Shown here piece by piece: positions 7,220-54,887 of a stretch of DNA of 64,000 bases. The notes under the pieces are model-generated. The model saw only the letters and a program-made list of their open reading frames with translations, had not been told where the DNA came from and did not search any database. Position 1 is the first letter of the stretch; each line of letters begins with the position of its first letter. Origin of the DNA: Isoetes taiwanensis (taxonomy: Eukaryota > Streptophyta > Lycopodiopsida > Isoetales > Isoetaceae). The translations under genes and the position numbers were made by a program. The stretch lies in contig JAJEKV010000053.1 of NCBI GenBank assembly GCA_021234155.1, positions 6,044,488 to 6,108,487 of the forward strand, read 5' to 3'.

Positions 7220-7260
7220 AGTGGTATCAGAGCCTAGATTCTATTTCCATATCCTGTGCA

Positions 7261-31500: not shown

Positions 31501-32678
31501 TCGTGGTGACTCGTCCACTTGTTCCTCGCAGCAGAGCTCGTCATGCGAGGGGTTGTCAAGTTGCGGGTGTGCCTGGGCATGGGACTGGGTCTGGGGTTGG
31601 GTGTGGTTTGATGGGTGTCTCCATCCAAATTGGGATCGGAGGAGATGACTATATAAGTCACCATATATACGTCGCCATGGCTGTTTGGGATTGCGGGATG
31701 AGGTCCACATAAATTAGGGCAAAGCAAAGTGTTGCTCATAGGGCCTTTGGATGTTTAGAATCTAGAAAGAGGACTTAAAAATGTCATTTGCACAACAATT
31801 TAATTTGGGCCATGGGAACCTAGTGAGAGTAGGCAAGATCTTCTCGCCAAAGGTTAAGCGGCGCCACTAGCGAAGACCCTGCCGAAAACAGGCCGGAAAG
31901 AAAAAATCGGTAGCAAATTTCAAACCCTTTTTCTCGTTGTCCTGAACATTTCTTCCCGACGAAAATTACTCCTTCCGGAAAATGGTGTAGAGACGAACGC
32001 TGTTGCACGACATCTTAGATAAAGAATTTGTTACAAAAACTGCGAATCTTTTGTACATAAATTTGAGGGAACATTGTCCTCCTGTGGTCGGCTGCAAGTT
32101 CCAACTTAAAGTAATTCAAGTTAATGGCCTGCTACATTCTACTATTAAGTCAGAAACGGAAGCAGCTGGTTCAAAATACAGAACAAAGGAATCCAGCAGT
32201 TTTGCTGAAGAGCTGAAGCTACTGTGTAAAAAGGGGAGATTGAATGCTGCAGTTCTTATTTTAGAATCTATGGAGCAGCGAAGCCTTCAAGTGGATGTTT
32301 CTTGCTATACTAGTATCTTGGTAGTATGCTCAAAAACGAAGTCCCTGTACAAAGGAAGGCAAGTCCATGCATATTTTGTCAAAGCTGGATTAAATCCAAA
32401 TATTTTGATATCAAATGTCCTTATTGACATGTATGGCAAATGCAATTGTGCAAAACAAATATTCGAGACAATGCCTGAGCGAGATGTTATTTCATGGAAT
32501 ATAATAATTTTGGGTTATGCCAGGGATGGTGATGTTAAACAAGCCATGAAGGTCTTCGGACAAATGGTAGATGATGGTTTGAAGCCGAATGGGGTGACAT
32601 ACGTTTTGAGTGCATGTGCTGGATGGTTGGAACTGTGCAAGTATGTACATAGTCAATTTGTTAATAGTGGAATTGATG

Positions 32679-32694
32679 CCCGGGGGTGTCACTT
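32679..32694 (+). repeat. Left terminal inverted repeat of the 17.5-kb element
   Basis: CCCGGGGGTGTCACTT, exactly complementary to 50133-50148. Similarity stops after 16 bp. Confidence 0.92.
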
Positions 32695-33195
32695 CTATAT
32701 ATATGGATACGCCATGTGCGTTACGAGGGTCCAAAAAAACCCCTTCGTATACGGAATTTCTCTAAGAAAACCCCATACCATACGTTTTAATGTTTCCAAC
32801 TTTTATCTATCCCATATCGTATTTATACCGCTTATTTTTTGTAATATTGATGACCCTTCTTGTATAAATACAAATTCAACTTAACACATCGCATACCCCT
32901 TATCATATAAATACGAAGATGTTAATAGAGGAGAATATATTAAAATGAGATGTTAAGAACATTTGTTCTAGTATAAGTATTTCTTAAAAAGGTACAAGGT
33001 AACACAAAAACTTTGGGAACAATCTACCAAACTCCTAGTCCCAATATGCCACTTGATATATCTTTGTAATGGAGCAATCTGAAATGCCAAAAACATACAT
33101 ACATTTCAAGTCAATTTGAAATAAATAAGGCAATATTATAACAATTTGAAAAATCAAAACTTACATCTTATATAGTGGAGGGCATAGCGCAACTC

Positions 33196-36100
33196 TATCC
33201 AAGCTTTTGCTTCCCTGCAAGATAAGTGAAATAATTAACAAATGAATTTACTTTATCAAACATGTTAAACACATACCATCTATGGTTGCGCCATTCACAA
33301 ACTTATCAAGCTGGAACCTATCATTCACATCCAACTTATATTTATCTGTCTTTGGGTCATATGTCAAACATACAAGTGAGATGATCGATTCAAGTTCAAT
33401 AACTTGATTATCGGTCAAGTCATAAGTGAACCATGTGCAACCCGGCGTCAATTTTTCATGTTCAGCATACCAAGCAAGGTTAAAATGTACATTGTATGTT
33501 GGTCTGTCACTCAAATCAATAGGTTCTCTACTCTCTTTCCATATATTACCCACTTTTCGTCTCATGCTCAGCACCCTACCTATGTACCAACCTTTATGTG
33601 TAATCCTGCTCGCACATATTTGCTTTCCTTTTCTAACTGAACGTTTTCCTTTTTTTATACTCACATCTTCTTCTGGATCTATGTCAAAGAGCACAGCACA
33701 ATCCGAACCAATTCCTATTGATGTCACTGCATTTATTTTCTTTTTGGATGACGTCAAATATGCTTGACTTTTCACCCTAGTTAATCTATCCTTAGAAAGC
33801 CAAGGATTACAATTCAATTGGCTCACCAAAGTGGATTTACAAATCTGTTTTCCATCTATATTCACTCTATAATCAATCTTCATATCATTAGGGAACTCTG
33901 TCTCATCCAACATCTCATCAAACACATGCCTTAGCTCTGATTCTGCAGCCACCTCTTCACTCTCTTCAATGTCATAATGATCATGTCCAAGTTCTATACT
34001 TGTCTCCACAATATCTGTCTCATCCCCTATATGGTTGCTCTCCAACTGTGTATAATAATCAGGATGAAAGTAATCCTCATATACCCAAGGCATGTCCCAC
34101 CAATTCCTTCCATTTTTTTTACTGCATACAATTCCAACTGCACTGCACAATTCTTGAGCAATTGAAAATCCTTCTTTTAAAGCATCCACTAACTTGGAAT
34201 TTGTGCTTATAAGCTCATAATTGGAGAGATCACAAACTATTTCTTTTCCATCCATGTCAACTTTCTTTTCTAGCTCTTGCCAAATATGTTCCTGTTTTGC
34301 ATGTGCCTTTGGGAAAAGCAACTCTGACAAACTTTGAAATTCAGCTACACGATTCAATGCACTTGAACTCTCTAGCAAATCTGCTCCGCTGTAACATCTT
34401 TCATTTCTCACCATACCTCCAATTTTGGAAAAGAAATTTTCACAAACATCAGAGCCTGTAGATTCTAATGGAACAGCAAGATGCCCAAAATTGTCTCTAA
34501 AATATGTAATCAATAGCACAACATAGTGGCATGAGATCTGAATGTCCATAAAAGTTTGCTGAACAAAATTTTTGGATATACAGTGTTGATCATGATCTAT
34601 TAGCCACAACCTCCATAACCTAACACATATATTAGTTCATGTTAATTGGGTATGTTGTTTGCTTCCTTAAAAATAACATGGAAAATGCTAAATACATATT
34701 CAAAAATACCTGAAGAAAAAAGAGACAGTTGAAGCAGCTTTAACTCGATCACGCAAACCCATGGTAGGTGATAGAAAGATGTCAATATACAGTGCCACCA
34801 CTGAAAGATATGTTTCCGTACCTAGGGTTCTCATTGGTGGGCCATTCAAACCGTTACGAAGCTTTTGTAGACACATTTGTACTTTCCTAGATGCAATGCG
34901 TTGGGCTGCTCTCCAATTCTGCCTGTCTTTTCTTTCCACATCATTCAACTCTAATCCATGTTCACCTTGACAATTATCAAAAACATGCCAGACATCATTC
35001 AAAGTTACAAGGTCATTTCCAAGGTATAGTCTCCTTGATGCATTATCCATTGGGTTTATGAGTTTTTTTCCATTATGAATGAAATCCTGATCATGCAACC
35101 CATATATGCTTCCATCTTCCCTTATACTTGCATTGAAAATCATTCCTTCCCATGGTATGGCATAGCAACAATTCTTGCCTTTATGTGATGTGTAATCTTG
35201 GATCATGCAAGCTCTACGTCTTGCATCCCCGTCAGATGCATGTCCTATTAGTGGCCCTATTATGGATCTTAGATGAACATCCCATAATCTTAATATCTCC
35301 TCCCATTGAGATCTCACATAAGTGTGGTCAAACCTATTGCAAGTCAATTGCACTACCAAAACTAGCTTTGGCAACTTCACATGTAAAGGGTTAACTATAA
35401 GCAATGACATTCTTTTCAAAAGCTTGAACAATGTTATTATAGCCTACATCACTGGAGCCAACATATACAACAAATGATGCATCGCATTTGTGGTTTTCCT
35501 TGTTACCACAAAAACCAATCAAGCAATCATCTCTAGCAAGCCAATGAATTGATTGCTTGACCACAGTCTCATCCTCGGCTACTATTACTGGTACACTGCC
35601 TTGTGACAACTGTAATTTGTGCATATATTTCATGTATGTCTTTCCAAGATGAATAAAAGTTTGTTCTTGTATGCCAAGCTTATAGACAAAACTTTTTCTT
35701 GTAGATCTTCGGGTCGTAAAAATGCTTGGACCAGCAAAATTGATGGACAAGAAATTATGCATCCTAGTGCCTCCCCATATTTTAATTGTTTCAAAAAGTG
35801 CCTTTGTAGTGTCAGTGTATCTTTTGCTCTGACCTGGCCGAATGATATTCCGTGCAATATCTGTAAGAAAAGTCCACAACCCTTGCCTCCCATCAAACTT
35901 ACCTAGACGATGAGCCTCTACTATATCATGGCAGAACTTTTGCACATCTTTACGGTTCATAGATTCTGCCAAAGTCCCATGCAAAGATCTTGCCCGCATT
36001 GAAAGTGCAAGAGCTCTTTGTTTACTGAACCATAACTCTCTCTTTAACTTCCTTACCTCCATCCTTGCCGTTCTAGCTAATTTGGCTATTTCAGTATTTG

Positions 36101-38730
36101 TCAAATACTCTACTCTAATCCCTGTCTCTGTGCTTCTCGTACCCCTTGCCTGTTTACCTTCATGTTGTCTTTGAACCCTCATGTGAAAATCCTTTTCCTT
36201 GGGAATAGAGGCACAAAATGAGCATTGCAAATTCTCGAAACACTTTCCATCATTTGAAATCCTTGTACAATTGACATGCCTAAATGTCCCTTTAATTTCA
36301 ATAATTTCTCCTTTATATTCAAGCCTACCCTCCAACTTAGGCTCACAATACCATTTATTTCCAGCTTTGGATTCGTCCAAGAATGGTCTTAAATCTCTTA
36401 GAGTGTTGCCGTAACGATATTTCATTTGGTAGAATCCCCAACATAAATATGGTAAACATGGTGACTCTGAAAAGCATAGAGTAGGCTACCATTCTAGAAC
36501 TTTCTTGTAAACTTGCAAATATACTTAAAAAATATTGCAAAATGATAGTAGACTTACGAGTGCTTGAAGTCGATGCCACTTCCTTTGTTTCGGATGAAGC
36601 ACCTGCATGTTATTCCATAATGTTAAATGAAGCCTATGGAACTATAAAAATGTAGTACACATTTGTAATTCCATAATCGCATCGATCCGAGACATCGGAT
36701 CGCCATTCTAGAATGGGACGAGCATGCATGTCATGCATGCATGCGGGCGGCGCATGCCCGTTTTGGGTTGGGAGTTCGCTATTTCAGGCGCGTTTCTGCA
36801 TCCACGTCTCATCGGCGCTTCCTCTTCTCTCAGCAGTACCTTATTCTCTTTGAACCCACCCTCCCCCCCTTCTTTGTTTATTGTACAAGTTCTGTTTATC
36901 ATGTTTTTCCACCCGCTGGGTGATGCTTTTTTTCCACCCGCTGGGTGATGTTCTCGTTTGTTGTGTTGGTGATGTGCAGGTACAGGTTGGCGAGCGGCAT
37001 CCGTTTCGACTTCTCCATGCGGGGGTTTTTTGGGAGCGATTCTATGCCTTACGTTTGTCTAAGCCCCTTGCCGAAGGCTTATCACTAGGGTTTTTCCTCG
37101 AAAACCCGAAAGGGCGGGGTTTTTTAATCCCGGTGATAAGCTTTCGGCAGGTACATCAGCCACTCATCTATTAGCATTGTATTTTTTTTGGGGTCCAAAT
37201 GATATAATTGGATTTTCCCTTTATTTTTCGTGGGTAGTTTGCATGTGTGCGGCTACCCACTGTCCACCATTGTAGAAAATCTGCTGAGATGAATGAGAAG
37301 CCTATCTATCGGGCGCTTTGTTGGTTTCTTGCGAGTCCCATTCTAGAATGCATGTTAAATGTTATTCCTTAATGTTGACGAGGCCTGTAGTTCCTATAGT
37401 TCCTATAGTGCTTATAGTACATTCCATAATTCCTATAGTAGTCGACAGTGAGTGTTATTAAAACTATAAATACACATTGCAAAAGTTAAACCCCTTGGGT
37501 TAGTATTGAAAATTGTTTTAAACCCTTCGAAAGTAGAATCTCACAGATAGAACCTGGTGCCGGATTGGACATAGGAGTGCCGGATTGGACATAGTGAGTG
37601 CCGGATTGGACAGACTTGTTGGATTAAACTACTACTTGCTGTGAATGGACAGACCTGGAGTGGCCGGATTGTGGTGGTCGGACCAGGCCTGGTACTATCG
37701 AATACTTGAAAGAACATACACCAATTAGACAATATTTCAACTGAACAACATAGATAAGCTATTCATTCACTATTTCAACAATGGTCAGAATTTAATATTC
37801 AAATATCCGGCTACTACACGAACTTCGTTTCACCATGCCGACATGTTTCCGACCTTGGTATTCACCCCTTAATCACGTCCGATCAATCTGCTAGTCATTC
37901 TCGTGTCCAATTTCTATTGAACCGTAATCCATAGGCATAGTCATGCTGCATGTTTATTTGAATAGCTAGTCTAGTAAGATAGTAAGGTGTCCCCTAAACA
38001 AAGAATATTACATGAATCTTGATCAGTGCACCTTGAACTAGCTGTAATTCCTGTGCATTTTTCCTGTATAATTCTCACTACTATATAAGACTATATAATC
38101 GATCCACAAAGACTTTATGACACTCAACGATGCCCAAATGAACAGTGCTTTTGTCTATGTGAACATTGCTTTTATCCAATTTAGTGAGTTCTAGGAAGCA
38201 CCAGCAAAACTTAAACCACTTTGGCAGTCTTGAATATGCCACAGAAAACATGCTGTAAAACCTCTGAATAATGGAAAGTGAAACGTCCATGCTAAAAACG
38301 CAGAAAACCTCTGAATATAGGAAAGCAAAACATGCAATATCCAAATAAACCAAGTAAACAGACATGGATCAACAGAACTAAACCAAGTAAACCAAGTAAA
38401 AAAGATTCTTCAGTAAACCAAGTAAACCAATTCTAACTCAATCTTTTCATGCATGTTATAACAAATGGTACCTCGTGTAACGAAAGAAAACAAACTGAGT
38501 TGCTTTGGGTCTGCTACATCCTTCCTTGGACGACCACCAACATTATTTCCTTCCTTCTTTTTGATCTTTTCCTCAAGCGCCATTGCACTTCTGACGTGCC
38601 TGGATGACTTGATGTGCTCCTTTAAATTGAAACAAAGATCACCAGCACGTGGAAACAATGCCAAAGTCTTCAAACATACGCGGCAAATTATGTTTATGTC
38701 ACTTACACAAGGCCCCCAAAAAATAACTCG
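33196..38730 (-). CDS. Candidate transposase of the 17.5-kb element, zinc-finger N-terminus
   Basis: Exons on the minus strand join in phase: a zinc-finger exon to 38472 (CRVCLKT...HIKSSRH, a C2H2/BED-like C-x2-C...H-x5-H), then 36602-36558, 36466 to about 35400, about 35431-34710, 34619-33267 and 33216-33196. Junctions such as R|G-A-S-S-E and FFFR|LWRLW are seamless. A second Cys pair (CSFCASI) precedes a long body. Candidate acidic residues lie in AEDETVVK, HASDGDARRR and GSDVCENFFSKIGG, an order compatible with a DDE/RNase H-like enzyme. A C-terminal part of about 450 residues is unplaced. One 1-nt frameshift seems to lie near 35400. No start codon was found, since the zinc-finger exon is open back to about 38800. 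The product would bind element ends and cut DNA in the nucleus, by inference. Confidence 0.65.
36603..37060. other. Intron DNA of the candidate transposase gene
   Basis: Most of 36603-38471 lies in one intron of the minus-strand gene. It holds the palindrome CATTCTAGAATG near 36702 and a related site near 37340. There is also a duplicated TTTTTCCACCCGCTGGGTGATG (near 36905 and 36928) and, near 37558-37610, three copies of GTGCCGGATTGGACA. No separate gene was seen. Confidence 0.5.
37067..37150. repeat. Foldback hairpin inside the transposase-gene intron
   Basis: CTTGCCGAAGGCTTATCAC and its near complement GTGATAAGCTTTCGGCAG flank a 40-bp loop that contains a GGGTTTTTCC/CGGGGTTTTTT pair. Arms are about 22 bp with one mismatch. 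It could be the remains of a small foldback element or a structured RNA. Confidence 0.7.
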
Positions 38731-41076
38731 TATTCATAATCATGATGGAAACCAGTATAATGGTGGTTTTTAGTACATGCAACTCGTAATGTCAATGAAA
38801 ACTAGATGACTTTTATGGTTTTGTAATATCACTACTAGTTAGATCATAGTTTTTTTACTAATTCTATGTCTTACACTAGTTTCTTAAAATTATTGCTAGT
38901 TTAGGAGGTGATTTTTGAGCCTACATTGTCAATATTATAATCTACGATGATTTTACATACTGGTTAGCATGATCAGATACATGGTTTTAACCTAGTTTCA
39001 ATCCTCCCAAGCTTTTCTTATTAGTTCAAGAACCATGTTTAATTTTGGAAGTGTGTTATATGTTTTTGGCACATGCCTATTTATAATGCATGTTAGCAGG
39101 CTATTATGTTGGTTTATGATGTTGTTTTTTATACAGTTTTTTCAATCCTTAAAATCACTACGGACTTTGAGCATAATTTCTTATATGAATTAGTAATTCC
39201 AACGATTATATCTATTTTTGCACTCCTTTTAGAGCATGATCCTTATTCGTAAAACTTATGTTATGTACATCGACTTGTCTACTGGTTGCATGGTGTGGTC
39301 TATGTTTTCTACCATTATATGTAGCATAGTTTTATGTTGGGCCAAGTGTATATTTGTACTTATAGTTGCCAATGTATTCTTTGTGGTATAGTATTTAGTA
39401 TCCATAGAGTGCACATTTTGTATGAGGATTATTTTAAGTGTTTATCATGCATGATTTAGAGGTCCCTTGCATAATTGGAGTGATAAGGAGCTCTAGAGGT
39501 ATGGTGTAGATAATAACCCTTTTGCTACCAACAATGTATCTTTCTAGTGAAAAAAACTATTCTATTCTATTCTATTCTATTCTATTCTAGTGAAAGTTGA
39601 GGTCATAACTGACTTGTGACAGGGATATCTAGTGTCCTAATGCAAAACTCTATATAATGTTATGTTCATAAGTTGTTCCTTCCTTATAATTAGCAATGTT
39701 CAATTGTAGATGAATGGCCAGAGAAACAATGTGGTGAATCGATGATACATTTCTCCATTCTCATTTCTAATTAACCTTATTTTAGAAGTGCGTATATCAC
39801 TTAGCCAAACCGAACTTACTAAATGTCAAGAAAGTACATAAGATCCTTTTTTTAAACTCAAACAATATTCATACCCATTGTACCATCTAGCAAAAGGCAA
39901 TAGATGTTCAGATATTGAACTTACACCTAGGCAGCAACTTAGAATAAAACATGCTTCACTTTCATGTAATAAAGAGTTATGAGAAATGCAAAAGCAATCT
40001 TGAATTCAAAGCATGATCCTAATTGCATATATTCACATTATATTAACTTCTAGGGGAATGGAGCTTGCTTGTCTTTGGCTGAATGTAGATGCCTAGTTGG
40101 CAGTTCTTATTTATACTCTCAGATCTGATCGGATCGCCAAGAAATCATATGAGCTCTATGAATAACAATTTTCCTTGGCACTGTTTCATTCGATCGATTC
40201 AAAAGGACCTATATTTAGCTATAAGTATCAATGGTCATATGAGCACCAACAATTTTCTCATGAAATTGCTAGGTCAAATATGCATGAGCATTCATTCATT
40301 AAAGAAATTCGCTAGATCAAAGACTCATAATGACGCGATCGTTGACCTTCAAGTCTAGAATCCCATCACAAATATATGACTTTGTTATTTTTTCAAGCCA
40401 TGATACAAGCCATTCAATATAGTGGCGACAACTCACATGTTTTTTTTTAAGCCATTATAAATATAAGCCATTTAACATTTTGGCGACACAACCGACACTC
40501 AAGAATATTATCAGTGTTCAGCGCTAGGCTTGGAACTAAGTTTTACCGCTCCATTTTCGCTTAACTAAGTTATAATATTTTATGATGAAGCACCAGACAC
40601 AAGTATTATAATTTGCTTGGAGAAATTGAATATTTTTAAGCAATAAAATATTGATACATTTACTTACTATAGCAACAGGATTGTAATAAATTTATGGAAG
40701 GGACAAGTTTCAATGGTTGCAAAACACAATTTATTTATCATTCCAACTCTCTCAAATTAATCTATTGAAACCTTTTTACATTGTTCTCCATATCTTCGCC
40801 TACATCACACAGAGCAACATGTCATTTCCGAAATCCAGCAATAGGTTTAGAGCATCATGTTATTTCCGAAATCCAGCAATAGGTTTAGAGCATCCGACGA
40901 TAGAATAGCTCGGATGTAGCATGCTTCCAAAGTTGAATCTGGACCTGTCACTAGGTTATTCACTTTTGAACCTTAGTCCTTAATTTTAAACAATATCAGA
41001 AGGTTGAAATTTCAACCATGTACTATTAAACATCAAATGCAATGTGCATATGAAATACTTCGGCGATCAATCTGTT
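38731..41076. other. AT-rich DNA within the 17.5-kb element
   Basis: No coding signal was seen. A TTCTA pentamer run lies at about 39555-39590, and a 41-bp tandem duplication (ATTTCCGAAATCCAGCAAT...) near 40818-40890. Confidence 0.5.
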
Positions 41077-42945
41077 GATCCCACCGTTCAAATGGTAGCT
41101 CATGTCCTAAGAAACGTCTTCGAAAAGAAAAAATGGCCATCCCCCGCAGGGATGTGACAAGCCCCAAATTTTCCCCTTTCTGACGTAGGCAGGCGACGGG
41201 GAAATGAAGTGTCACCCCAGTTCGGCTGTTCTGATAAGCTTGAAATGCAGTTTTGACTTCGTATATGAGTTCAAAGCATTCAATTTACTCTTACACCAAT
41301 TAGTAGGACCAACAGAGCCAAACTCGACTCGCCATGGGCAATTACTAGTGGACCTTTCGCTCAACATGCTCGTCCCTGCCTACTAGTGTAATAAACATAG
41401 CATGCAAGTTTGGAACTGGTGCCTGGGAGGGGTTTTATTGTTCTCCATTCCTTCGAACCCTCGAGAAAACCTTGCACGCAAGCTCTCAGCCACTTCAAAG
41501 GCAGGGAGGGCTGCCAAAACGCAAACCCTACAGATTTTGTAGGGTTTAAGTATCCGGGTACCAAAGATGCTCCATCTGCTAATCCCACCGTTCAAATGGT
41601 AGCTCATGTCCTAAGAAATGTCTTCGAAAAGAAAAAATGGCCATCCCCCGCACGGATGTGACAAGCCCCAAATTTTCCCCTTTCTGACGTAGGCAGGCGA
41701 CGGGGAAATGAAGTGTCACCCCAGTTCGGCTGTTCTGATAAGCTTGAAATGCAGTTTTGACTTCGTATATGAGTTCAAAGCATTCAATTTACTCTTACAC
41801 CAATTAGTAGGACCAACAGAGCCAAACTTGACTCGCCATGGGCAATTACTAGTGGACCTTTCGCTCAACATGCTCGTCCCTGCCTACTAGTGTAATAAAC
41901 ATAGCATGCAAGTTTGGAACTGGTACCTGGGAGGAATTTTATTGTTCTCCCTTCCTTCGAACCCTCAAGGAAACCCTGCATGCAAGCTCTGAGCCACTTC
42001 AAAGGCAGGGAGGGCTGCCAAAACGCAAACCCTACAGGTTTTGTAGAGTTTAAGTATCCAGGTACCAAAGATGCTCCATCTGCTAATCCCACCGTTCAAA
42101 TGGTAGCTCATGTCCTAAGAAACGTCTTCGAAAAGAAAAAATGGCCATCCCCCGCACGGATGTGACAAGCCCCAAATTTTCCCCTTTCCGACGTAGGCGC
42201 GCGACGGGGAAATGAAGTGTCACCCCAGTTCGGCTGTTCCGATAAGCTTGAAATGCAGTTTTGACTTCGTATATGAGTTCAAAGCATCCAGTTTACTCTT
42301 AGACCAATCAGTAGGACCAACAGATCCAAACTCGACTCGCCATGGGCAATTACTAGTGGACCTTTCGCTCAACATGCTCTTCCCTGCCTACTAGTGTAAT
42401 AAACATAGCATGCAAGTTTGGAACTGGTGCCTGGGAGGGGTTTTATTGTTCTCCCTTCCTTCGAACCCTCGAGGAAACCCTGCATGCAAGCTCTCAGCCA
42501 CTTCAAAGGCAGGGAGGGCTGCCAAAACGCAAACCCTACAGATTTTGTAGGGTTTAAGTATCCAGGTACCAAAGATGCTCCATCTGCTAATCCCACCGTT
42601 CAAATGGTAGCTCATGTCCTAAGAAATGTCTTCGAAAAGAAAAAATGGCCATCCCCCGCACGGATGTGACAAGCCCCAAATTTTCCCCTTTCCGACGTAG
42701 GCGCACGACGGGGAAATGAAGTGTCACCCCAGTTCGGCTGTTCCGATAAGCTTGAAATGCAGTTTTGACTTTGTATATGAGTTCAAAGCATCCAGTTTAC
42801 TCTTAGACCAATCAGTAGGACCAACAGAGCCAAACTCAACTCGCCATGGGCAATTACTAGTGGACCTTTCGCTCAACATGCTCGTCCCTGCCTACTAGTG
42901 TAATAAACATAGCATGCAAGTTTGGAACTGGTGCCTGGGAGGGTT
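41077..42945. repeat. 504-bp tandem repeat, about 3.7 copies
   Basis: The unit starting near ATCCCACCGTTCAAATGG repeats at 41077, 41581, 42085 and 42589, an exact 504-bp period. The last copy is cut at about 42945. Copies differ by a few percent. Each unit holds the same 60-codon plus and 75-codon minus frames, which I take as by-products. The repeat is confined to this element. Confidence 0.95.
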
Positions 42946-42949
42946 TAAT

Positions 42950-43616
42950 CTAAGCCATTTAATAGCACCTCATAATCTCAACCCTTCGGTGTTCCTTGCT
43001 AAGATATGCAGTTGCTGAATAGACACCAGCTGAAGCTAACCCAAGTCCGCCCATCATATCCACAAGAGACGCTATGCCTTCAGCCAAATATAAGAAGCAC
43101 CACAAGGCAATGCCAAAAGTTTTGCCAGATGTTCTGGAAAAATCGCTTTCCTATAACGAACCAAAAATGTTTAGCAAAATAGAAGCTAAAGTCAAACATT
43201 CTAAGACTTGATAGAAAGAACACTGCAAGCCTCGTTGTTCAGGAACTCGGGGCGTCGAAGCAGAGCATGGATCATATTTAAATCCATGAAATCTTCCTGG
43301 GGATGCATGTGGGTTTGGGAAGGGGATTTAAAACAGGCGAAGCAAATAGAAAAGCTGTGGTCTGCGCGGAAGCATTGTATACACTTGAATCCGTTTTGGA
43401 GAATGAACCTAGAGCACATATCACATATGGGTTTTGTTGAGATAACATAGAACATGGCCGTGCACTCTTCAGAGATATAATGTGGCAGGAACACAACCGG
43501 CTTACCTCGGGCACAAATCCCTTCAAGAAGACTTCTGTTGGCTTCTGATTTCGGCAAGATGCCCGCACTAATTCGTATGCCTTGCTATAAGAAGCATGGA
43601 ATTCAAAGACAAACAC
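42950..43616 (-). pseudogene. Captured ZZ-type zinc-finger gene fragment
   Basis: The minus strand holds an exon-like frame with the ZZ pattern CDMC...CIQC...CFAC...HMHPQEDF, four zinc-binding pairs that normally mediate protein contacts. Upstream in another frame is YSKAYELVRASCRNQKPTEV. Downstream an acceptor TTCGTTATAG leads into a hydrophobic exon (FGIALWCFLYLAEGIASL and GLGLASAGVYSA) of the same or a neighbouring gene (42950-43153). Frames are not continuous, and no start was identified. Its position inside the 17.5-kb element suggests a host gene piece picked up by the transposon. Confidence 0.55.
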
Positions 43617-44189
43617 AATAGATCAAGTTAGAAAAGCCTGTTGGTCGGAACTGCATATCCATCCTCAAGAAAAACCGCTGCCTGCCTCTTGCATAGAACC
43701 AACGAAGATGAAGGAAGCAAATCGACACCTATCTAGCCAGGAATAGCAGCATTCGCCATCTGCGGCCCGCCCATGTGAAGCGCAGCCCTCCCGACCACAC
43801 AAATGCAGGAATCCAAACCCTAGATTCCCCTGTTTGGAATCTTGGGTGCCAGCATCAGCTTATACGATATTTACATACGGATACCAAACCATGCAAAATC
43901 TTATGTTACAAAAATACGAGATTATACATTTTAGGCGTAGGACTTGGCACTAAAGTTGAAAGGCTTAAGATAAAATAGGTGGATCACAGGGGAAGTTATC
44001 AGCCATATGACAGAATAGGGCAAATAAGGCAACGGGAGGAAGCAGATATGGCGGAAGAGTGCAGGTGGATCTCGGATAGAAGGATATCTTTTGGAAGAAC
44101 CAAGGTTTGCAGGCAAAGTAGAGCAAAAAGCTTGTGCTGGATTCATAGATATGACATAACTTTCTTGCAAATCCGGCCTTTGTTGTGCA
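43617..44189. other. Possible 5' flank of the captured ZZ gene
   Basis: GC-richer sequence at 43650-43830 looks like the upstream or leader part of the minus-strand ZZ fragment. The rest holds only short frames without support. Confidence 0.3.
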
Positions 44190-44395
44190 GGTAAGCATAG
44201 AAAAGCAGAGCAAATACACGGCTATGGCGATTTCCTGGCAAATCCGGCATTTTTTGTACAGGTAAGCATAAAAAAGCAGAGCAAATACATGGCTATGACG
44301 ATTTCACGGCAAATCCGCATTTTTTGCGGTGTAAGCATAAAAAAAGAGCAAATACATGGCTATGGCGATTTCCTGGCAAATCCGGCATGAAATAA
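44190..44395. repeat. Three tandem copies of a 65-70-bp unit
   Basis: The unit GTAAGCATA(G/A)AAAAGCAG...GGCTATGGCGATTTC...AAATCCGGCAT occurs at about 44191, 44260 and 44330 with small indels. Each copy opens with a donor-like GTAAGC. Confidence 0.8.
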
Positions 44396-45960
44396 GGATG
44401 TGGGAGAGTAATGTGCTTTGGAATGCCTTTGGTAATGGTTTTGAAGCTACATTTTCCTTAGAATTTGGAACCCTTTATAAAGAACACAAGGCTCAAGGTC
44501 CCGAAAGTAACGGTGCTAGCGACGCCCGGATGAGCGACCAAGCGGTTAGTCTTCTTTATTATTTGTATGTATAATGATGTTTTACGTGAAGGTTTATCTC
44601 TATTGCTGCTTCCTTCATGTTGTTCCCCTCATTAGGACAATGCCTCGTGAAGAAGATGAAAAAATAGAAAACGTCAATTCATCATTGGGAAGAGCAAGGT
44701 GCTTAGTTTGATGCTAAAAAAATTTGCAAGTCAATCTGAAACAAAGAGTTGGATTTTGTTGGGTAACAGAATTCTAGCATTTAATTTTCGAGAAATTACT
44801 TGCCCATAAATGGAAGTAAAGTTTGCAATAAAAATGTATCTGCAAAACTGTCAATCCCGCCTTTGAGGACTAGGTCACTAGGATTAAGTTGGGCTTCCAT
44901 CTTAAGTGTAATATGATATGGGAGCTATAATGAGAGTGGCCTCTACTACTGTCACCTTCACAAATTTCACATCTCTTCTATTTTACGCAAGCATCCGCCT
45001 TTTGTAGGACTTGACATTTCATTTTATTCTTGTCCCAATTTAAATATCTTAAGAAGTTTACAATTAAAATGCATCTTCGGGGCGATGCTTTTGGGACTAG
45101 GTTTCAAAGAAACAATTAGAATTGTTGTCAATTCCAAACTTCATAGAATAAAGTTTTCATAAATAATATGGCTACACTGTGGGCGACCTCTCGGATGGGG
45201 GTGTGGTAGATTTAAATTGTGGCTTCGGGTCCATCGGCAAAAATACCTTACAAGTTTAGATTGGCGAGGATTTGAATGGAAATGCAAAGCTTAATTCAAT
45301 TAGGAGCAAGGGAGAATGAAAAATTATATATTTGAGAAATATATCCAAGTGGTCTTTGAGTGTCAATGTTAAATCGATGGTCAATTCAATGCAAACCAAG
45401 CTTCTTGTTCCATTGATATGCTTCTAGCATGCAAGTAGATATTAGAGAACTACGAACTCTCTATGTTGCTTGTTTATTAATTACTTGAACATTGTAATTT
45501 GAGTAACTCCGACTTGATCCCCGATGTGCAAAAGCGCGGTTAGTGTAGAGAACCCAATATTGACCAAGGATCCCGATTCGGGCAATGCCGCAAACCAGCA
45601 ACATAGCCGAGAACGGAACTCTTCCTCCTCCTCCCTCTTCCTCCTCCTCCTCCTCCTCCTCCTCCTCCTCGGTCTCAACCACGCAAAACCCCGACCGGGG
45701 TGTGCGTGAGAAGCGATCATTATTCCTTTGCACCCCACGACTTTAACTTATCCGGCATTTGGGCTAGATCCAAGTGGCGGTACTCATATGAAATGCCCGA
45801 ATCTCGGTCTCCGGGTTCACGGTTGTCAAACTTGATGGTAAATAAACATGACGCAGCGTGCATTCATGTTTAAGAACATTACATGTTCTCAAGATTCAAT
45901 TGTCTTGTCCCGTTGTTTGCGGCATTATGGTACGATCCAATGGGAAGCTATTATCGCCAA
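44396..45960. other. No gene recognised; contains a (TCC)n tract
   Basis: Low coding signal throughout. The trinucleotide run at about 45622-45669 generates poly-Glu and poly-Arg frames that are artefacts. Confidence 0.5.
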
Positions 45961-45964
45961 CTTT

Positions 45965-46366
45965 TTAGATCGGTACGGATGGTGATGCGAGATTTTTGCC
46001 ATTCTTGACAACAAAACTGGGGAACAAGTTTCGCAGACCCGACCATATTATTTTCTTGCAGATCCGCCGGACTGAGACGAACGGGGACGAGCATGGATTG
46101 GATGCTTGAATTCGTTTTGCACAGAAACCACCATGTTTTTTCTTGATGGAGTTTGCAGATGCAGGGATGAAACGAGGTATCTTCTCTGCACATCTTTTGG
46201 CCATTTGAATTGTTTCTCTTGCAGGTAAAATCCACCAAAAATTTGCTTCCGAGAATATATTCGGCTTTCTCGGACTATGATTTGCATCATTCGATAACAT
46301 GAATAAGTATGGATCTTTTAGAAAATATCTCTTGCTACACCCGCTCTTGCTCTTCAAACAAATCAA
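45965..46366 (-). other. 133-codon minus frame, uncertain
   Basis: An ATG frame with mixed composition and several Cys and Lys/Arg residues overlaps two other minus frames of similar length. No domain was recognised and no splice signals support it. It may be another captured fragment or chance. Confidence 0.15.
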
Positions 46367-46369
46367 GAA

Positions 46370-46616
46370 CCGGGATTCATATGGGGAAGAAGAGACCGCT
46401 CAAATGAGCGGTTGTCCCTAAGCGGAACCAACTATTATCCATAAAAAAATGACAACTCAAGTATACCATTTCCAAATTATAGAAAGAGGTGTATGCCTGA
46501 TATTATTGTACTTTTATATCAAAATTCAATGGAAAAAAAAAATTGAGCATCTTGGTCTTCTGTAGTCTTTGCTTTTGTAATCAAAATACCGAAAATACCG
46601 ATAATAAGCAAATTTG

Positions 46617-46650
<34 letters not shown>

Positions 46651-47293
46651 TTAAATGAACCATATGCTGAAATAATACTAATTAATAGGAGACATCACAA
46701 TTTAGAATCATATAAAAAAAATCATGAACCCTCAAATTTTATTACGCTAATACATGAAGGTTGAATATGATGGTCTCTTATCGTATTACCAAACTTCTTG
46801 CCACATGAAGCACAGTAAGGTTGATATCATGGAAAAAAAAAACACACTAGTTTTTGACATTATCATGGAAGGAAAATATCTAAACCAAGCATAGTTTTAT
46901 TATTGATAATTAGTCACTATAAAATACCATAATAATTATACACTAAAATAACAAAGATGATTAATCGCTGTAAAATATAATACTAAATATGCACGTAAAA
47001 TTACAATGTCAATAAACCAAGGATAATAGACGTGATCAAATATCATTCCGATAAACGTGATAAATTAAGCAGTAGCACATATCATATATCCAAGTTGTCA
47101 TAAAAACTAGCTATAAATTATCATCTTTCAATACCATGTGAAGAAACACTATTCGTATGTCATGTTACTAAACTGCATTGATGAACTATATGGTATAACT
47201 AGACATGATTTGTAAACTTTTTGGCCCACATACCGGTATTGATTTTAGGAGTTGGTTTTTACTACGAAATCATTAGAAAAAGATCATACTAAT
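46370..47293. other. AT-rich DNA with an A-run
   Basis: No gene was seen. A run of about 27 A lies at 46621-46647. Confidence 0.6.
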
Positions 47294-48169
47294 TCAATTT
47301 TGGGGGCCTTGTGTTAGATTTGCGTAACCATTTACCGTAGCTTCATAGAGCTCAAAAGGAACACCGGTTTCCTCAACAACCTTAGCTACTTCCATCGACA
47401 AACATGAATCCACCTCAGCTTTGTTTTTTTCTTGGATGTTCTCAGCTGCAGAGTTACTTTCTGAACAAACTTTCGTGTCTGCGTTTTGGTGCTTGCGCTC
47501 ATAATTTTCAACATGAGATCTAGTCTTACAATGATGTTTTACAAAATTATAAATTGTGTCATGATTACCTTTTCCATACTGCATATCACACTCTATGCAC
47601 CAAACATATAATTTGGCCTGTCCATTCACATCAACAGACATTATCTCACACTGATCTTTCCTACCATGATTCCAATAATTATCGGTCATCTTTTGATTCA
47701 AGTCTCTTTGCCATTTCATAACCTGTGCCTTCCTCGCTAGCTTGCTTTGTAATCTGCTCTCAACTTTAACATGAGCACTACTAGCATCAACCGCCTTATT
47801 AACTTCCTCTACATCGTCTTCATCTCCTTCATCCTTGACCTCTATTATATCTGATTTTCTGCTCTCAGGCTGCAACAAAACAAGAGACTCATCTATACTT
47901 GGCTTCACCCTTTTCTCCATTTGATGATCCACGAATTTGACATGTATCTCATCCCCTTCGAAAGTGTACTTTTGTTCTTGCTTTGGCGACAACTGCAATC
48001 CTCTGTCGCCAAGGAAAACCCAACTACAGTCTTCAAGTAATTGCAGCTCATCACTCTCAATCTCTTGCCGCAGCTCAGCATATGTTGCTCCTTCGCGTAT
48101 CTTGACAAATCCAACTTCTACGCTGCCGCCTCCATTTGCCAAGTAAATATACACTGTTTTGTGATGCAT
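47294..48169 (-). CDS. Ubiquitin-like/zinc-finger protein of the 17.5-kb element
   Basis: An intact 291-codon ATG frame runs to a TAA stop. Residues 1-80 (KTVYIYLANGGGSVEV...YAELRQEIESDEL...SWVFLGDRGLQL) have the spacing of a ubiquitin-like or PB1-type beta-grasp fold. An acidic linker follows, with a possible SUMO-interacting stretch (SDIIEVKDEGDEDD). Residues about 190-225 form a zinc finger, CIECDMQ...FVKHHCKTRSH, close in layout to the finger at the N-terminus of the candidate transposase. No membrane segment or signal peptide is visible. It is on the same strand as the transposase gene and inside the same element. An accessory DNA-binding role is inferred. It could instead be a captured host gene. 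Confidence 0.6.
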   Translation of the reverse strand: MHHKTVYIYLANGGGSVEVGFVKIREGATYAELRQEIESDELQLLEDCSWVFLGDRGLQLSPKQEQKYTFEGDEIHVKFVDHQMEKRVKPSIDESLVLLQPESRKSDIIEVKDEGDEDDVEEVNKAVDASSAHVKVESRLQSKLARKAQVMKWQRDLNQKMTDNYWNHGRKDQCEIMSVDVNGQAKLYVWCIECDMQYGKGNHDTIYNFVKHHCKTRSHVENYERKHQNADTKVCSESNSAAENIQEKNKAEVDSCLSMEVAKVVEETGVPFELYEATVNGYANLTQGPQN

Positions 48170-48620
48170 AGCCTGATTTTATTTCATCAAAGTTAGTAAC
48201 TAACTCATGAGTTTATCTAATCAAAGTATTATAGAAAAATATCCTACCTCTCTACTCCGGATGGTGCTCATGATCGTGTATAAAAAAACTGGTTTTAATT
48301 GAAATTGAGGTGCCTGCATTCATTGAAAAAGCATAAAATAAGCATTTTCAGCATATGAACTGGTTAGCAGTTAGCATGTACGGATTTTCTTATATTGGTT
48401 TTGGTTAAGTGTTGTGTTGCACAAATTGTTTTCCACATGCTTTGCACAATTTTGGGTTCAAGTTCAGTGTAGGTCAATGCTTTTGCAGCAGGGGGGCTTG
48501 GATATCTAGTCCAGGGAGAATTCAAGCTGTCCTACTGAGATGAAAACCTCACATGCACCAGTTAGCATGTATTGTGGAAGGTTCCAAAATATTGTCATGG
48601 GAAGTGTCTTTTGAGGCTCA

Positions 48621-48929
48621 TCAAGCAGTCATTGCCACTTTCAGCCTTCTCAATTCAATCAGAGCTGCAGGTGTTATAGCCAAAGTGGAAATAATTTGTC
48701 CAACTCCAATCCTTTGTAGTAAGGTCAAGCCCCTTTGATGGCCTGTAAATCTGCGGATGAAGGGAACAATGTATTTGTCATAAAGTGGCAGGAGAATGCA
48801 AATGGTTAGTGTGATAAATAATGAAAAGGATGCTGCTGGGATCTGAAAGTGCGATCCGATGTGCCGATCCAGTGTCTTCCCTTGGCTAAGAAACATAGTT
48901 GCAACTTGCGCAGGGACCCAAAGAAGCAC
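48621..48929 (-). pseudogene. Captured NPF (NRT1/PTR) transporter fragment
   Basis: One open frame of about 100 codons matches the C-terminal half of plant NRT1/PTR family proton-coupled transporters. It has FQIPAASFSLF, a hydrophobic segment TICILLPLYDKYIVPFIRR, then RGLTLLQRIGVGQ and AALIELRR. These are hallmarks of helices VII-IX of the family. The rest of the gene (full proteins are about 550-600 residues) is absent on both sides and the frame ends TGA after KVAMTA. It lies inside the 17.5-kb element, so it is read as a transposon-captured piece. Confidence 0.8.
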
Positions 48930-49308
48930 GTGATCCCTTCCCTGCCTGCACAGTTCTCAGCCTTTCAGCTCCCTTGCAACATTCCAATCTTCCTTTTAAT
49001 CTCTTCCCCCTGCAACTTCTAGTTTTCCCTGCACAATTCTCTGCCCTCAGTTTTAAATGCCCCTGTTCCTTCACCACAATTCTTGCCTCCTTTTCCAGCA
49101 ATCCCCATACACTTCTCTATATATTCATTCATCCTTTTTACCAATTCTTCACTCTGCACCCTCACTCCTCGTATTTTTTCTTCAAGTTTCTTCCCTGTTC
49201 GAATCTTCCTTTCGCAGATTATTCTGTATTTAGAACATGAATATGAATGCTGCAGGATGCATGCTAGCTTGATCATCATCATTTCCATCACCATTTTTGC
49301 AGTGAAGT

Positions 49309-49704
49309 TTGTTTCATGCTCTTGTCTTTATACCAGGAGTTGCTTCTAATGTGCTTTGTTCTTCAGCAAGTTCTTCAACAAGTTCTAGCCTTACAATTCT
49401 TGCTCTTGCCGAAAACCATCTATCAGGACCCATCCCATCAGAATTTGGCATGCTTTCCAATCTGCAAAGGATTCTTCTCTATAATAATAGCTTGGAGGGT
49501 ACCATTCCCAAGAGTATGCTAACAAATTGCACCAATTTGAAAGGTTTATATTTATCATTTAACAATTTATCGGGTTCTATTCCTAGTGAAATCGGTAGAC
49601 TGCAGAACCTAGAGAGCATTAACAGAGCATTAGGAACATTACCAGATGCACACACGAAGAAGCCTTGGGGTCTTCAAGTCCTCAGACCACTACTAGACGT
49701 TTGA
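49309..49704 (+). pseudogene. Captured LRR receptor-like protein fragment
   Basis: The plus frame contains two to three plant-type leucine-rich repeats: LTILALAENHLSGPIPSEFG, LQRILLYNNSLEGTIPKSM and LKGLYLSFNNLSGSIPSEIG. An upstream Ser-rich stretch and a non-LRR tail ending at 49704 complete the frame. Full LRR receptor kinases have many more repeats, a membrane span and a kinase, none present here. It is the fourth host-like fragment in the 17.5-kb element, on the strand opposite to the transposase gene. Confidence 0.75.
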
Positions 49705-50132
49705 CGTTTGCTCTCCAAAGTCTTTTCCTGCAAGAAGACAATGCAAATCACCAATAAATGTCAATATAAAACTAACAAAAATGCATTTGCTGTGAGATTG
49801 CAACAGGTAACGTGATCTTACCTAAGGGGCCGAATTCAGGATATTAAAGCTTAGTTAAGAATGGGTAAATTATGAATCTAAATTCTTTCTTTGAATAGTT
49901 GATCTAGTTGATCGAAATGAAAAATGGCCAGCTCCCTTCCTAGCTAGCTCTGAGTTAAGCAATCAACCCATCTCGTGCCATACGAGAATTCCTATCCCGC
50001 CATCACCGACCCCTCATCGTACGGATATGGTTTAAAAACCAAAATACCTTATTTTACTAGTACGTATACGACACGTAAGACCCAAAAAAAAACCCCTTTT
50101 CGTCCACGCACGTGGTACATACGAATTATATT

Positions 50133-50148
50133 AAGTGACACCCCCGGG
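50133..50148 (-). repeat. Right terminal inverted repeat of the 17.5-kb element
   Basis: AAGTGACACCCCCGGG, the exact complement of 32679-32694, followed at once by the AATTGATG duplication. Confidence 0.92.
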
Positions 50149-50195
50149 AATTGATGGTGAGATCTTTGTTGAAAGTATTCTTGTTTCTATGTATT

Positions 50196-50412
50196 TGATA
50201 AATTTAGGAGATCAAGAAGATAACTACAATGCACAATATATTGAATAGAACAGAAAAACTTGGTTGAACAGGCTTCAACCGTAGCCTAGATATATGCAGA
50301 CTCTATGAACAGACACGACTCTTCATGAACTCATGCGACTCTCTAGATTAGTGCCATGTCATATGATGACGTGGCTAATATAGATGAGGTGGAGGATTGA
50401 TATATTCCAACA
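50196..50412 (-). repeat. 3' LTR (minus orientation) of the LEA-carrying element
   Basis: 217 bp, no difference seen from 52552-52768. Confidence 0.95.
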
Positions 50413-50437
50413 CCCTCCCTCAAGACGAACACCTCAA

Positions 50438-52510
50438 CTATCCAAAGTCATCATGTCCAGGTTGATGCGTGAGCCATCTTTGGCGTTTTCTGCATTTTCT
50501 AATGTTCTTCCGAATGTTCTTGTTCTTGGAATATATATCAGAAAGTTTTCTCTTCATGTATGAATTTCTCCTTTCAAATTCTCCAGTTTCAGCTTGCGGA
50601 ATTTTATCAAAAACATTTACAACTTCTGGGAACATCAAATTCATATTACTGCCTTCCAAGATTGATTGCATCATGTCTGGATCGTCTGCAAATTCGTAAC
50701 ACATATCCCAAAGATCTGCTTGCTCTCTTCGACATGCTAAAGGAGTCATCTCTTCTTTCACATTCTTAAGCATGTCATTCCCTCCCTTAAGCAGCTAAAG
50801 ATTATGCCATTATAACTCAAATGGATACCTTTGGAATTAGTTTCTTTATCTTTATCTGCAATTTGAGTCTTGGGCCCTCCCTGAATCTCTGGATCTTCAA
50901 TTTGGACTGGGCCCGTGGAGAGCTGTGCGTTATGAGCAGCAGCATTGATGTCTTCTACTGCCTCAGATGTGCTGCCATGTGCTTGATCCATAGGTCTATT
51001 GCTCAATATCTTCATGGTTCCCCTGGCATTTATCTGTAATTTAAATAAATTTGGATCTCCAGTAGCGTGACCAGCATTGCCCTTTGCATAGTCTGCAGCC
51101 TCTCTAGCGTTCCTTTGGCTTTCATCTTTGGCTTGGCCAGCCTTCTCCTTTGCACTATCTGCATATTGACGAGCTCTGTCCTTTGCAGCCTCGCCCGTAT
51201 CTTTTGCACTTTGTGTAGCTTGGCCAGCCTTATCCTTGGCAGCATCATAAGCCTGACCAGCCTCCTCCTTTACGCCCTCCTTAGCCTCCTCTGTAAACTC
51301 CTTTGCAGCGTGAGCTTTCTCTCTTGCACTGTCAGAAACCTCTCTAGATAATTGTTTGGCATCTTCTCCTGCACGTCCACTTCCGTACTTGGCAGCTGCA
51401 CCCTTTTCATTTGCCATATCTGTAACCTCTCCTGCTTTCTGATTGGCCCCTTCTTTATTATTCAGACGGATTGGGTCATCTGCAGTACTGCCAGCAGCCC
51501 CAATAAGAGTCGCCTGAACTTCAATATTGTGCCCATTTTGATCTTCTTTGACAATTTGATTATCTGTAAGGGTGTCTTGCATCAGGGCAGTGTCTTGCAT
51601 CAGGGCCCCATCAATGCAAGAAATTTCGTGCAAGCAGCCACTGCATTTGGCTCTAAATTGCTCTTCTGCTTTAGTATCATCTGGAATGTCATTTAAGACT
51701 GCAATCTGGGCGATGTGGACTTCAAATCCGACCTCCTCTGGGTCCTTCTTAAGGATTGGGTCTTCTGCAGCATCCTTGCCTACCTTGCCATAATTTATTA
51801 GATCCCTTTTCATCTCCAACGGAGGGATTTCTTGACTGGACTGGTACGTGAAGACATTAAGGTCTTCAATGGCCATACAATCTGTTTTATTATCATTTCG
51901 GAAATGCATCTCTGTCTTAATCCTTAGGAATCCAGGATCTTCAAATACTTCTTCTGAAGCCTTTTTTGACGGCTTTTGCAGAATCTGTTACAACAGCAAC
52001 AGCCCTTCTGCTCTCTTCCACATAATTTTGGCAAAGGACTTCGAATTGGGCTATGTCTGCTTCGTAATTGAGGTTATCTGTACTCCCATCAAGATTGGCC
52101 TTGGCTCCAAAAATAGGAAATGCCTCCCTTTCTTGGCCTTGTTCTTGGTCTTCGATAGCCTCTTCTAAGCCATCAACGGCACTTGCAAGAGGTGCTCTGA
52201 ATTCTGGGATATCCATCGTGCGCTTCTTAGCTTTGTGAGATTCAACGCCGACCCTATCAAAGTCAGATTTGCCTACAACCTCTTCAACGGCCCCTTCCAT
52301 CACGGCCCCTTCTTTGACATAACCGCTCCTGGCATTATCTCTCCCCTCTTCCGGAATACAGGAGGAAATAGGAAAACATGCAGTTATGCAAGTTTTGTAT
52401 TTTAATTTGAATACCTTAAATCTCTTGGACACAGCATTCCGTTTCTTCTTCCTTGAAGTCTTCTCTGGTGTAGGCGGTTTCCCTGTATCTCTATCTGGCT
52501 TCTCCTCCAT
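50438..52510 (-). pseudogene. Captured group-3 LEA-like protein gene
   Basis: Three consecutive minus frames read as one gene: 52510-51941 (MEEKPDRD...), 51909-50758 and 50773-50438. A single-base shift in an A6 run near 51965 separates the first two. A GTATCC...TTAAG mini-intron (about 50770-50830) may join the last two, and a possible intron lies near 52400. The centre has about ten 11-residue LEA repeats (AKDKAGQATQSAKDTGEAAK and similar), amphipathic and Lys/Glu/Ala-rich, as in group-3 LEA proteins that stabilise membranes and proteins during drying. A Cys-x2-Cys (AKCSGCLHEI) is unusual for LEA proteins. The C-terminal part is not recognised. Retained introns point to capture from genomic DNA, not from mRNA. 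Confidence 0.7.
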
Positions 52511-52551
52511 ACTCAGGTTCCAAGATCAAGAGCCTACAGGCTCTGATACCA

Positions 52552-52768
52552 TGATAAATTTAGGAGATCAAGAAGATAACTACAATGCACAATATATTGA
52601 ATAGAACAGAAAAACTTGGTTGAACAGGCTTCAACCGTAGCCTAGATATATGCAGACTCTATGAACAGACACGACTCTTCATGAACTCATGCGACTCTCT
52701 AGATTAGTGCCATGTCATATGATGACGTGGCTAATATAGATGAGGTGGAGGATTGATATATTCCAACA
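52552..52768 (-). repeat. 5' LTR (minus orientation) of the LEA-carrying element
   Basis: 217 bp, no difference seen from 50196-50412. The tRNA-Met primer-binding site adjoins it at 52539-52551. Confidence 0.95.
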
Positions 52769-54887
52769 GTATTCAAAATGTGGAGCTGTTGAACATGCCC
52801 GTCATGTATTTGACAGAATAGCTAACAAGAACATTGTTTCATGGACCTCAATGATATCAGGATATGCTCGTAACGGCCATGGTAAGGATGCCTTCAATCT
52901 CTTTGTAAGGATGATATGGCACGGATTGAGACCAAATGAAACAACATATGCTAGCCTTCTAGGTGCATGTGCTGATATGACCGACCTTCAATTAGGAAAG
53001 TACGTCCATGCACATCTTACCAGGCATGGATTTGATTCAGATCTTTTTATTCAGAATACTCTTGTTAACATGTATATCAAGTGTGGAAGCCTTGAGGATG
53101 CCCAACAAGTGTTCAACAGGATGTATAATTCAGACGTGGTGTCATGGACTTCATTAATTGCAGGACTTGTCGAAGATGCCAATGGAAGAGAAGCTTTTAG
53201 GCTCTTTATGGAAATGGAGAAGCTGGGGTTTGCGGTGAGATAAAGTTACTTATATCAGTCTTCTCAATGCATGCTCCAGTTTAGGGCTTTTAGGAGGGGG
53301 CAAGTGGGTTCATGCCCACATGATGAGGACTGGAACTGAGTTCAATGTCTTTGTAGGAAGTGCACTTATAAACATGTATGCTAAATGTTTGAGCATTAGT
53401 GAGGCTTGCCAACTTTTTCAAATGATGCAAAAACACAATGTTGTTTCATGGACTTCCATGGTTACAAAGCTACGTTGACAATGGAGCCAATATGGAGGCT
53501 ATTGATCTCTTCGGGAAAATCTTTGCAGCAAGACTTGAAACCGGATAATGTAACACATGCAAGCATCTTGATTGCATGTGGAAATTCAGGAGCTCTTGAG
53601 TATAGTAAAAATATCCATCTACATCTTCGGAAAAGTATTCCCGCATTGGATGCATCATCAACAACACACTTATTGATACATATTCTAGATGTGGAAGCGT
53701 GGGAGATGCTTTCTTAGTGTTTAATAGCATGGTCGTGAAAGATAGGGTTTCTTGGAATGTAATTGTGTGCGCTTATCTTTGAACATGGTGATGCCAAGAC
53801 ACAGACTCTTGAACTGTATCGAGGGAAATGCAGAGGGAAAGCTTCAAGCCGGATAAAGTAACATTTACTTCTATCCTTGGAGCTTGTAGCCATGTTGGAT
53901 TGGCGGATGATGGACATTTTTACTTTGTTTGCATGAGCCAAACGTATGAGCTTAGCCCGATTGTTTGAACATTATGCTTGCATTGTTGATCTTCTTGGAC
54001 GCGGGATGCTTGAATGAAGCACATGACTTTATTATTACAATGCCATTCAACCCCTGCTTTGTAAATTGGACAACGTTTTTTGGTTCTTGTAGAACATATT
54101 ATGATACAAGGCTTGCAGAGTACGCCATGGAAGAAGCCCTGGTAGCTCCACCGTACAACTAACGTGTGAAAAAACTATTGAAGATATGTTGGATGTGTCC
54201 ATGCAGAAAATCGTGGAAACGAAAAGCATGCCCATTTGAATTTCTACTATATTGATATCCATAATGATTGCAGGGTATGTGCAGCATGGGGAGGGCCTTC
54301 CTGCTCTTGAACGTTTTAAAAAAATGCAAGAGGAAGACATAAAGCCAAATACAATTACGTTTTCAAGCGTAATTAAAGCATGTAGCAGCTTTGGACGCAG
54401 ACACCAACCCAGGCATATTCATGACCAAATTATTGATTGATGGTAAACGTGGTTTGGATGATGTTATATTGAGTGGTCTCATCGATATGTATGCCAGGTG
54501 TGGGAGTCTGGATGAAGAATGTTGTGAAGGTTTTGATCAGTTGTCAAAATGAGATGTTATCTTATGGAGTGCAATTATTGCATGACATGTACAACATGAA
54601 ATGGTCTACCTGATTTAAAACTTTATAAGGAAATACAGTAGGAGGGTGTGAACCCAGACATGGTTACCTTTCTAGTATTATGAAAATGAAAATGAAAATT
54701 ATACACTATCTGGTAGAGACCCTGCGTCTATGAGACGAAAACAAATACAAAAGTAGGTACAAATTATTCTTGTCCTTTTATATGAGATTCTCGCGCATAT
54801 AACAACTCATGTAAGTATGCTTGTAAGTATGCTGCTATTTTACGTGAATTCTGTAGATTGCCACTGATTACATGTTATTGTTTGCAG

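Follow-up and report, generated by a model that had tools for sequence, protein, structure and literature searches.

Evidence for a disabled P-like transposon with a BAH-like tail, captured host pieces and a nested element in a PPR gene of Isoetes taiwanensis

The locus lies in a 64,000-nucleotide stretch of the Isoetes taiwanensis genome (contig JAJEKV010000053.1, positions 6,044,488 to 6,108,487; the window, numbered here from its first letter), where a pentatricopeptide repeat (PPR) gene is interrupted by a transposon with terminal inverted repeats (TIRs). The 17,470 bp between the ends consist of a P-like element of ~8.86 kb and an 8608-bp insert nested within it. The element is bounded by the following features.

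32671-32678, no strand: left copy of the 8-bp target-site duplication (TSD), AATTGATG
32679-32694, plus strand: left TIR, CCCGGGGGTGTCACTT; family ends were also read at other loci
50133-50148, minus strand: right TIR, exact inverted match of the left TIR
50149-50156, no strand: right copy of the 8-bp TSD, AATTGATG
31991-32678, plus strand: left part of the interrupted PPR gene, continued in frame at 50157-50195 and 52774-53240

With as many as 3 mismatches allowed, the window contains only two matches to the TIR, and both are the element ends; shuffled windows gave a mean of 0.16 matches, with 2 matches in 1 of 100 shuffles. The probability of an 8-bp match by chance is ~2e-5 from base composition. 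Resemblance between the two ends extends weakly to ~43 bp. Excision of the P-like element together with an adjoining insert of long terminal repeat (LTR) type yields a single 398-residue PPR reading frame. A preliminary description of this DNA had proposed a transposon defined to the base by exact 16-bp TIRs, a perfect 8-bp duplication and an in-frame PPR join. The TIRs, the TSD and the join all confirm these bounds, and the join extends further than proposed once the LTR-type neighbor is also removed.

The transposase gene of the element occupies the minus strand.

47314-48169, minus strand: N-terminal coding, first part, with zinc finger 1 (WCIEC...H-x5-H); the start codon is inferred
38410-38705, minus strand: N-terminal coding, second half, with zinc finger 2 (ICRVC...H-x5-H) and a GRPRK stretch
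35391-36485, minus strand: open reading frame (ORF) containing the first catalytic Asp (AEDET, 35571-35573), with an out-of-frame overlap with the ORF that follows
34710-35443, minus strand: exon part with the second Asp (GHASDGD, 35225-35233) and a D-x2-H motif (~35075-35086)
33277-34619, minus strand: exon encoding the catalytic Glu helix (DVCENFFSKIGG; Glu codon ~34441) and the C-terminal portion
33308-33736, minus strand: BAH-like C-terminal domain, residues 301-443 of ORF 33248-34636, from the fold of the window ORF; the same domain is present in relative P0002
33195-33214, minus strand: last short coding exon, ending TAG; splice sites by eye

The order is N-terminal region, ORF 36485-35391, ORF 35443-34710, intron, exon 34619-33277, intron and last exon, with splice sites placed by eye and one or more short exons left undefined between 38.4 and 36.5 kb. 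The N-terminal region, rejoined across the nested insert, aligns to the N-terminus of the long relative P0021 across both zinc fingers. The score was 135 against the whole of P0021, and 200 shuffles of its first 300 residues gave a mean of 37 and a best of 63. The element had been credited with its own transposase plus a second zinc-finger protein. The transposase stands; a separate second protein was rejected on the score of 135 against the shuffle maximum of 63, and the sequence in question forms the transposase's own N-terminus. The ORFs that meet near 35.4 kb in different frames reflect a frame offset in this copy, which together with the nested insert means that the copy is broken at two places. 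With these two lesions, the present copy is unlikely to make transposase. Other copies with longer open frames could plausibly supply it in trans.

The C-terminal domain of the window ORF was assigned from VIA-align rows, in which 30 of the 31 top matches contain a BAH domain; VIA-align also places the domain of P0002 in the BAH fold. Foldseek returned no match for the window's C-terminal ORF at E 0.001. The Pfam BAH profile matched neither the window ORF (E 1) nor any of 63 members (E 0.1), and the domain is therefore termed BAH-like rather than BAH. The best fold matches are the histone readers EBS, SHL, ORC1b and AIPP3; the Isoetes domain differs in being fused to a transposase, and the likeness is one of fold. 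A DNA- or protein-binding beta-barrel that is no chromatin reader is a somewhat doubtful reading of this tail, given the preponderance of BAH proteins among the fold matches and the other reader-type domains that end two distant relatives, PHD in P0205 and Tudor in P0057. A literature search found no described BAH-transposase fusion in the titles and abstract openings of the papers listed. P0205 also combines a P-type helix-turn-helix with its PHD finger and a stretch that by eye resembles a C48 peptidase.

Fold comparison groups the catalytic core of a relative with the P element. The core is of the RNase H DDE type with an insertion domain ahead of the Glu helix and a P-like fold, as in the P superfamily. 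The 8-bp duplications also match this superfamily, both in the window (AATTGATG) and at copies elsewhere in the genome (contigs C1095, ACATGGCT, and C1042, GGAAAGAG, and short copies). Direct P profile scores are weak: the P-transposase profile PF21787 hit 4 of the 63 members, all below the cut-off, and PF12017 scored above the cut-off only in the distant member P0205. No THAP profile match was found in window ORFs, in the 63 members (many of them fragments) or in the long relatives P0195 and P0196; the fingers instead follow a C-x2-C...H-x5-H pattern by eye. THAP is reported to be restricted to animals in the portion of PMC7776569 available to us, which also lists the residues of the insertion domain that bind GTP. 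The family is called P-like, not a P element sensu stricto, because THAP was sought and not found. It differs from the Drosophila P element and the wider P superfamily (P, Galileo, THAP9) in having no THAP, two C2H2-type fingers, a BAH-like tail, a TIR start of CCCGGGGG, long relatives of 1122-1530 residues and a plant host. In fold, duplication length and behavior it is like the P element.

Novosib elements also make 8-bp TSDs, and membership in another superfamily with such duplications (hAT, KDZ/Zisupton or Novosib), or in an unnamed superfamily apart from P, was weighed. The C2H2-type fingers in place of THAP, the C-rich TIR start, the weak direct P profile scores and relatives without any P-named entry would all fit such a placement. 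The hAT superfamily shares with the Isoetes family the 8-bp TSD and an RNase H core with an insertion domain, and the excerpted text of PMC12730594 gives 8-bp TSDs for both hAT and Zisupton. The hAT C-terminal dimerization domain was not among the families matching the 63 members at E 0.1, and the same profile library does detect this domain in the window's hAT ORF (15810-17720). KDZ/Zisupton shares the TSD length and differs in that no Pfam match to it was found among the 63 members at E 0.1, a comparison by profiles only and with no KDZ sequence. KDZ and Novosib do not appear in the fold lists, an absence that does not count against either of them. Sequence searches of the PDB found no transposase. 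We consider a placement outside P improbable. The preliminary description had noted that the duplication would fit the P superfamily and that the protein did not obviously do so; the first point holds, and the core fold of the relative overturns the second, with THAP missing all the same. We assign a probability of roughly 0.87 to the reading that this copy is a disabled member of a multicopy cut-and-paste family with a P-type DDE transposase and N-terminal C2H2-type zinc fingers, belonging to a THAP-less, BAH-tailed P-like lineage.

About half of the distance between the ends is occupied by an element of a different kind.

38706-47313, no strand: nested TIR element, 8608 bp, 16-bp TIR CACAAGGCCCCCAAAA, inside the transposase coding sequence
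38703-38705, no strand: left copy of the 3-bp duplication TTA
47314-47316, no strand: right copy of the 3-bp duplication TTA
41067-42946, no strand: 504-bp tandem repeat array within the nested element
43201-43584, minus strand: zinc-finger-like piece within the nested element, a weak ZZ_ADA2 match below the cut-off

The minus-strand coding sequence 48169-47314 breaks off at CACAAGGCCCCCAAAA, the inverted 16 bases of which begin at 38706. Deletion of 8608 bp and one TTA brings ...VNGYANL to meet SDINIICRVC... in frame. A sister copy on contig C1100 has an uninterrupted reading here (...VNGYANLSDINIICRICLKTL...), with TCA at the site and no nested element. The first 500 bp of the nested element are found at at least 39 further loci with 90-98% identity (40 of 473 candidates scored), and 38 of the 39 begin at base 1. 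No transposase was recognized among those of its ORFs that were scanned. The CAC start and the 3-bp TTA would presumably suit CACTA or PIF/Harbinger. The preliminary description had seen one 17.5-kb element with a private tandem repeat. Neither claim was borne out: the 8608 bp are a separate element, and the 504-bp array belongs to it. A single gene-carrying mega-transposon moving as one evolved unit is very unlikely. The ends and the TSD do enclose the full 17.5 kb, and the presence of family ends 36 kb apart with a matching TSD (see below) means that large units may be mobile; against this, the middle segment has its own TIRs and TSD, interrupts a coding region that is in frame once it is taken out, is missing from the empty site in C1100 and has a left end that recurs across the genome. 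The single unit was rejected on three grounds: the nested TIR and TSD, the in-frame rejoining of the coding sequence, and the empty site.

The genome searched comprised 1,658,258,908 bases in 1,110 contigs. The exact TIR 16-mer has four copies in all of it, two here and two on contig C1095. The latter bound a second copy (C1095:3211160-3214012) of 2853 bp in the opposite orientation, with its own exact TSD, ACATGGCT. It is a form of the present element with one internal deletion and matches window positions 50149-48048 (2.1 kb, right) at 96.3% and 33417-32679 (0.75 kb, left) at 98.4%. Internally deleted copies that retain both ends are known among P elements, according to the part of PMC7776569 that was available. 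Searches with the left 500 bp and the right 449 bp of the element gave at least 41 and at least 40 genome matches (40 of 350 and 40 of 190 candidates scored, respectively), the present copy included in each. Of 30 left-end loci read, 9 have a right terminus nearby that is flanked by the matching 8-mer, exactly in 8 cases and with one mismatch in the ninth; two of the nine, L030 and L032, are one shared site. The pairing script tolerated up to 3 changes in the terminus and up to 1 in the 8-mer; 21 of the 30 loci stayed unresolved, including the present copy and C1095. The nine paired copies are short (321-608 bp) and resemble miniature inverted-repeat transposable elements. Copies L010 and L013 have common flanks, as do L011 and L015, which suggests that these pairs arose by segmental duplication and not by independent insertion.

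A 36-kb pair of family ends at C1042:10301779-10337927 has the 8-bp duplication GGAAAGAG at both ends. The C1100 copy has CATTTGTG at its left and a damaged right end; CATTTGTG also adjoins the right end of the C1081 copy, which shares the C1100 flank. The 8-mers of the C1087 end pair differ, with the left flank ending in GTGCAATT and the right in GATGTAAC. The family-wide terminus reads CCCGGGGGTRT by eye. A 245-residue transposase core matches at least 151 places in the genome, the present one included (150 of 770 candidates scored). Among the first 30 core matches, 23 are free of stops; some matches lie inside open frames of 600-757 residues. The C1100 sister copy (L066 1864-5885) has a ~4-kb insertion in the transposase gene with ends AAGTCATATTTAATTA / TAATTAAATACGACTT. 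The two doubts raised in the preliminary description, that no second copy with the same termini might exist and that an end might be an assembly join artefact, are both answered by the C1095 element, whose own duplication speaks against an assembly join, and by the recurring ends with 8-bp duplications of their own. The chance that the ends are an assembly artefact is practically negligible: nothing was found in its favor, the same ends stand at tens of loci with differing duplications, and the window contains 0 N bases.

Host pieces are carried near the right end.

48427-48912, minus strand: piece of a POT/NPF transporter gene (PTR2), matching C1034:8271.6-8272.4 kb at 95-97%
48906-49339, no strand: piece matching C1028:14815985-14816420 at 95.6%, with a further 41 bp at 48379-48419; the source locus is not shown to be coding
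49335-49614, plus strand: piece of a leucine-rich repeat (LRR) gene (49335-49375 and 49385-49614), matching C1084:609 kb and C1060:4547 kb
49635-50148, minus strand: right-end region common to other long family copies

The LRR piece matches C1084 at 97.6% over 41 bp and 99.6% over 230 bp, with a similar match at C1060:4.547 Mb, and the LRR part is also present in the C1042 and C1087 copies. The region between the common right end and the coding sequence has no similarity to C1100 or C1081. The matching host loci are the probable donors of the pieces. At least three host gene pieces had been counted; three loci are matched and two are gene parts (POT transporter and LRR), while the third matches a locus not established as coding. 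The POT/NPF match is split, with ~290 bp of the C1034 locus missing from the piece at a junction that shows short homology and, by eye, no GT-AG. This loss without splice signals suggests gap repair rather than retrocopying. An origin of the pieces as spliced retrocopies was rejected as less likely, since the junction fits an internal deletion. Pack-MULE elements, a known type of gene capture, likewise carry pieces of same-genome loci near one end. The Isoetes element differs in that its transposase and TSD are not MULE-like and that capture occurred in a copy still holding its transposase gene.

In the mechanism we propose, the zinc fingers would bind the element ends, and the RNase H core would excise the element and join it at target cuts staggered by 8 bp. 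The BAH-like tail may bias target choice via chromatin, and host pieces could be acquired when excision gaps are repaired. At some point the transposase coding region was entered by an unrelated TIR element that makes 3-bp TTA duplications, which roughly doubled the size to 17.5 kb. The locus also illustrates that nesting and capture can produce a gene-carrying element of 17 kb that did not arise as one unit. P elements are a founding model of DNA transposition and are best known from animals. It is possible, at a little short of even odds, that the family represents a deep, largely undescribed P-type branch of seed-free land plants and some animals, amplified in this lycophyte, in which C2H2-type fingers replace THAP and a chromatin-reader tail, BAH-like here and of PHD or Tudor type in distant members, uses histone marks to direct insertion. 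A large THAP-less P-like family with a reader-like tail in a land plant would reveal the essential parts of the P machinery and allow a direct test of chromatin-guided insertion-site choice by a cut-and-paste transposase. The family may already be catalogued in Repbase, and its novelty in print is unproven; the available sections of PMC8566536 and PMC10541799 name no such elements, and the papers listed in a literature search nowhere use the term 'P superfamily'.

The LTR-type element at 50196-52768, also in the PPR gene, has a TSD of GTATT and two identical 217-bp repeats, and is judged young from the identity of its LTRs. These read TGATAAATTT...CCAACA and enclose an antisense LEA_4-like ORF (below the cut-off). 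The I. taiwanensis genome holds many PPR genes, according to the portion of PMC8566536 at hand. Elsewhere in the window, the hAT-type transposase ORF at 15810-17720 (plus strand) is uninterrupted over 637 residues and contains DUF659 and the hAT dimerization domain. Near-identical ORFs at 6684-7127 and 9091-9534 (plus strand) bracket a gag-like ORF at 7180-8466 by eye and are possibly the LTRs of a retroelement. A flanking DEAH helicase is 70-71% identical to moss, liverwort, fern and conifer proteins and 68% to Selaginella. Its top relative is P0075, labeled Ixodes scapularis (73% over 62%), a record that is possibly contaminated or chimeric.
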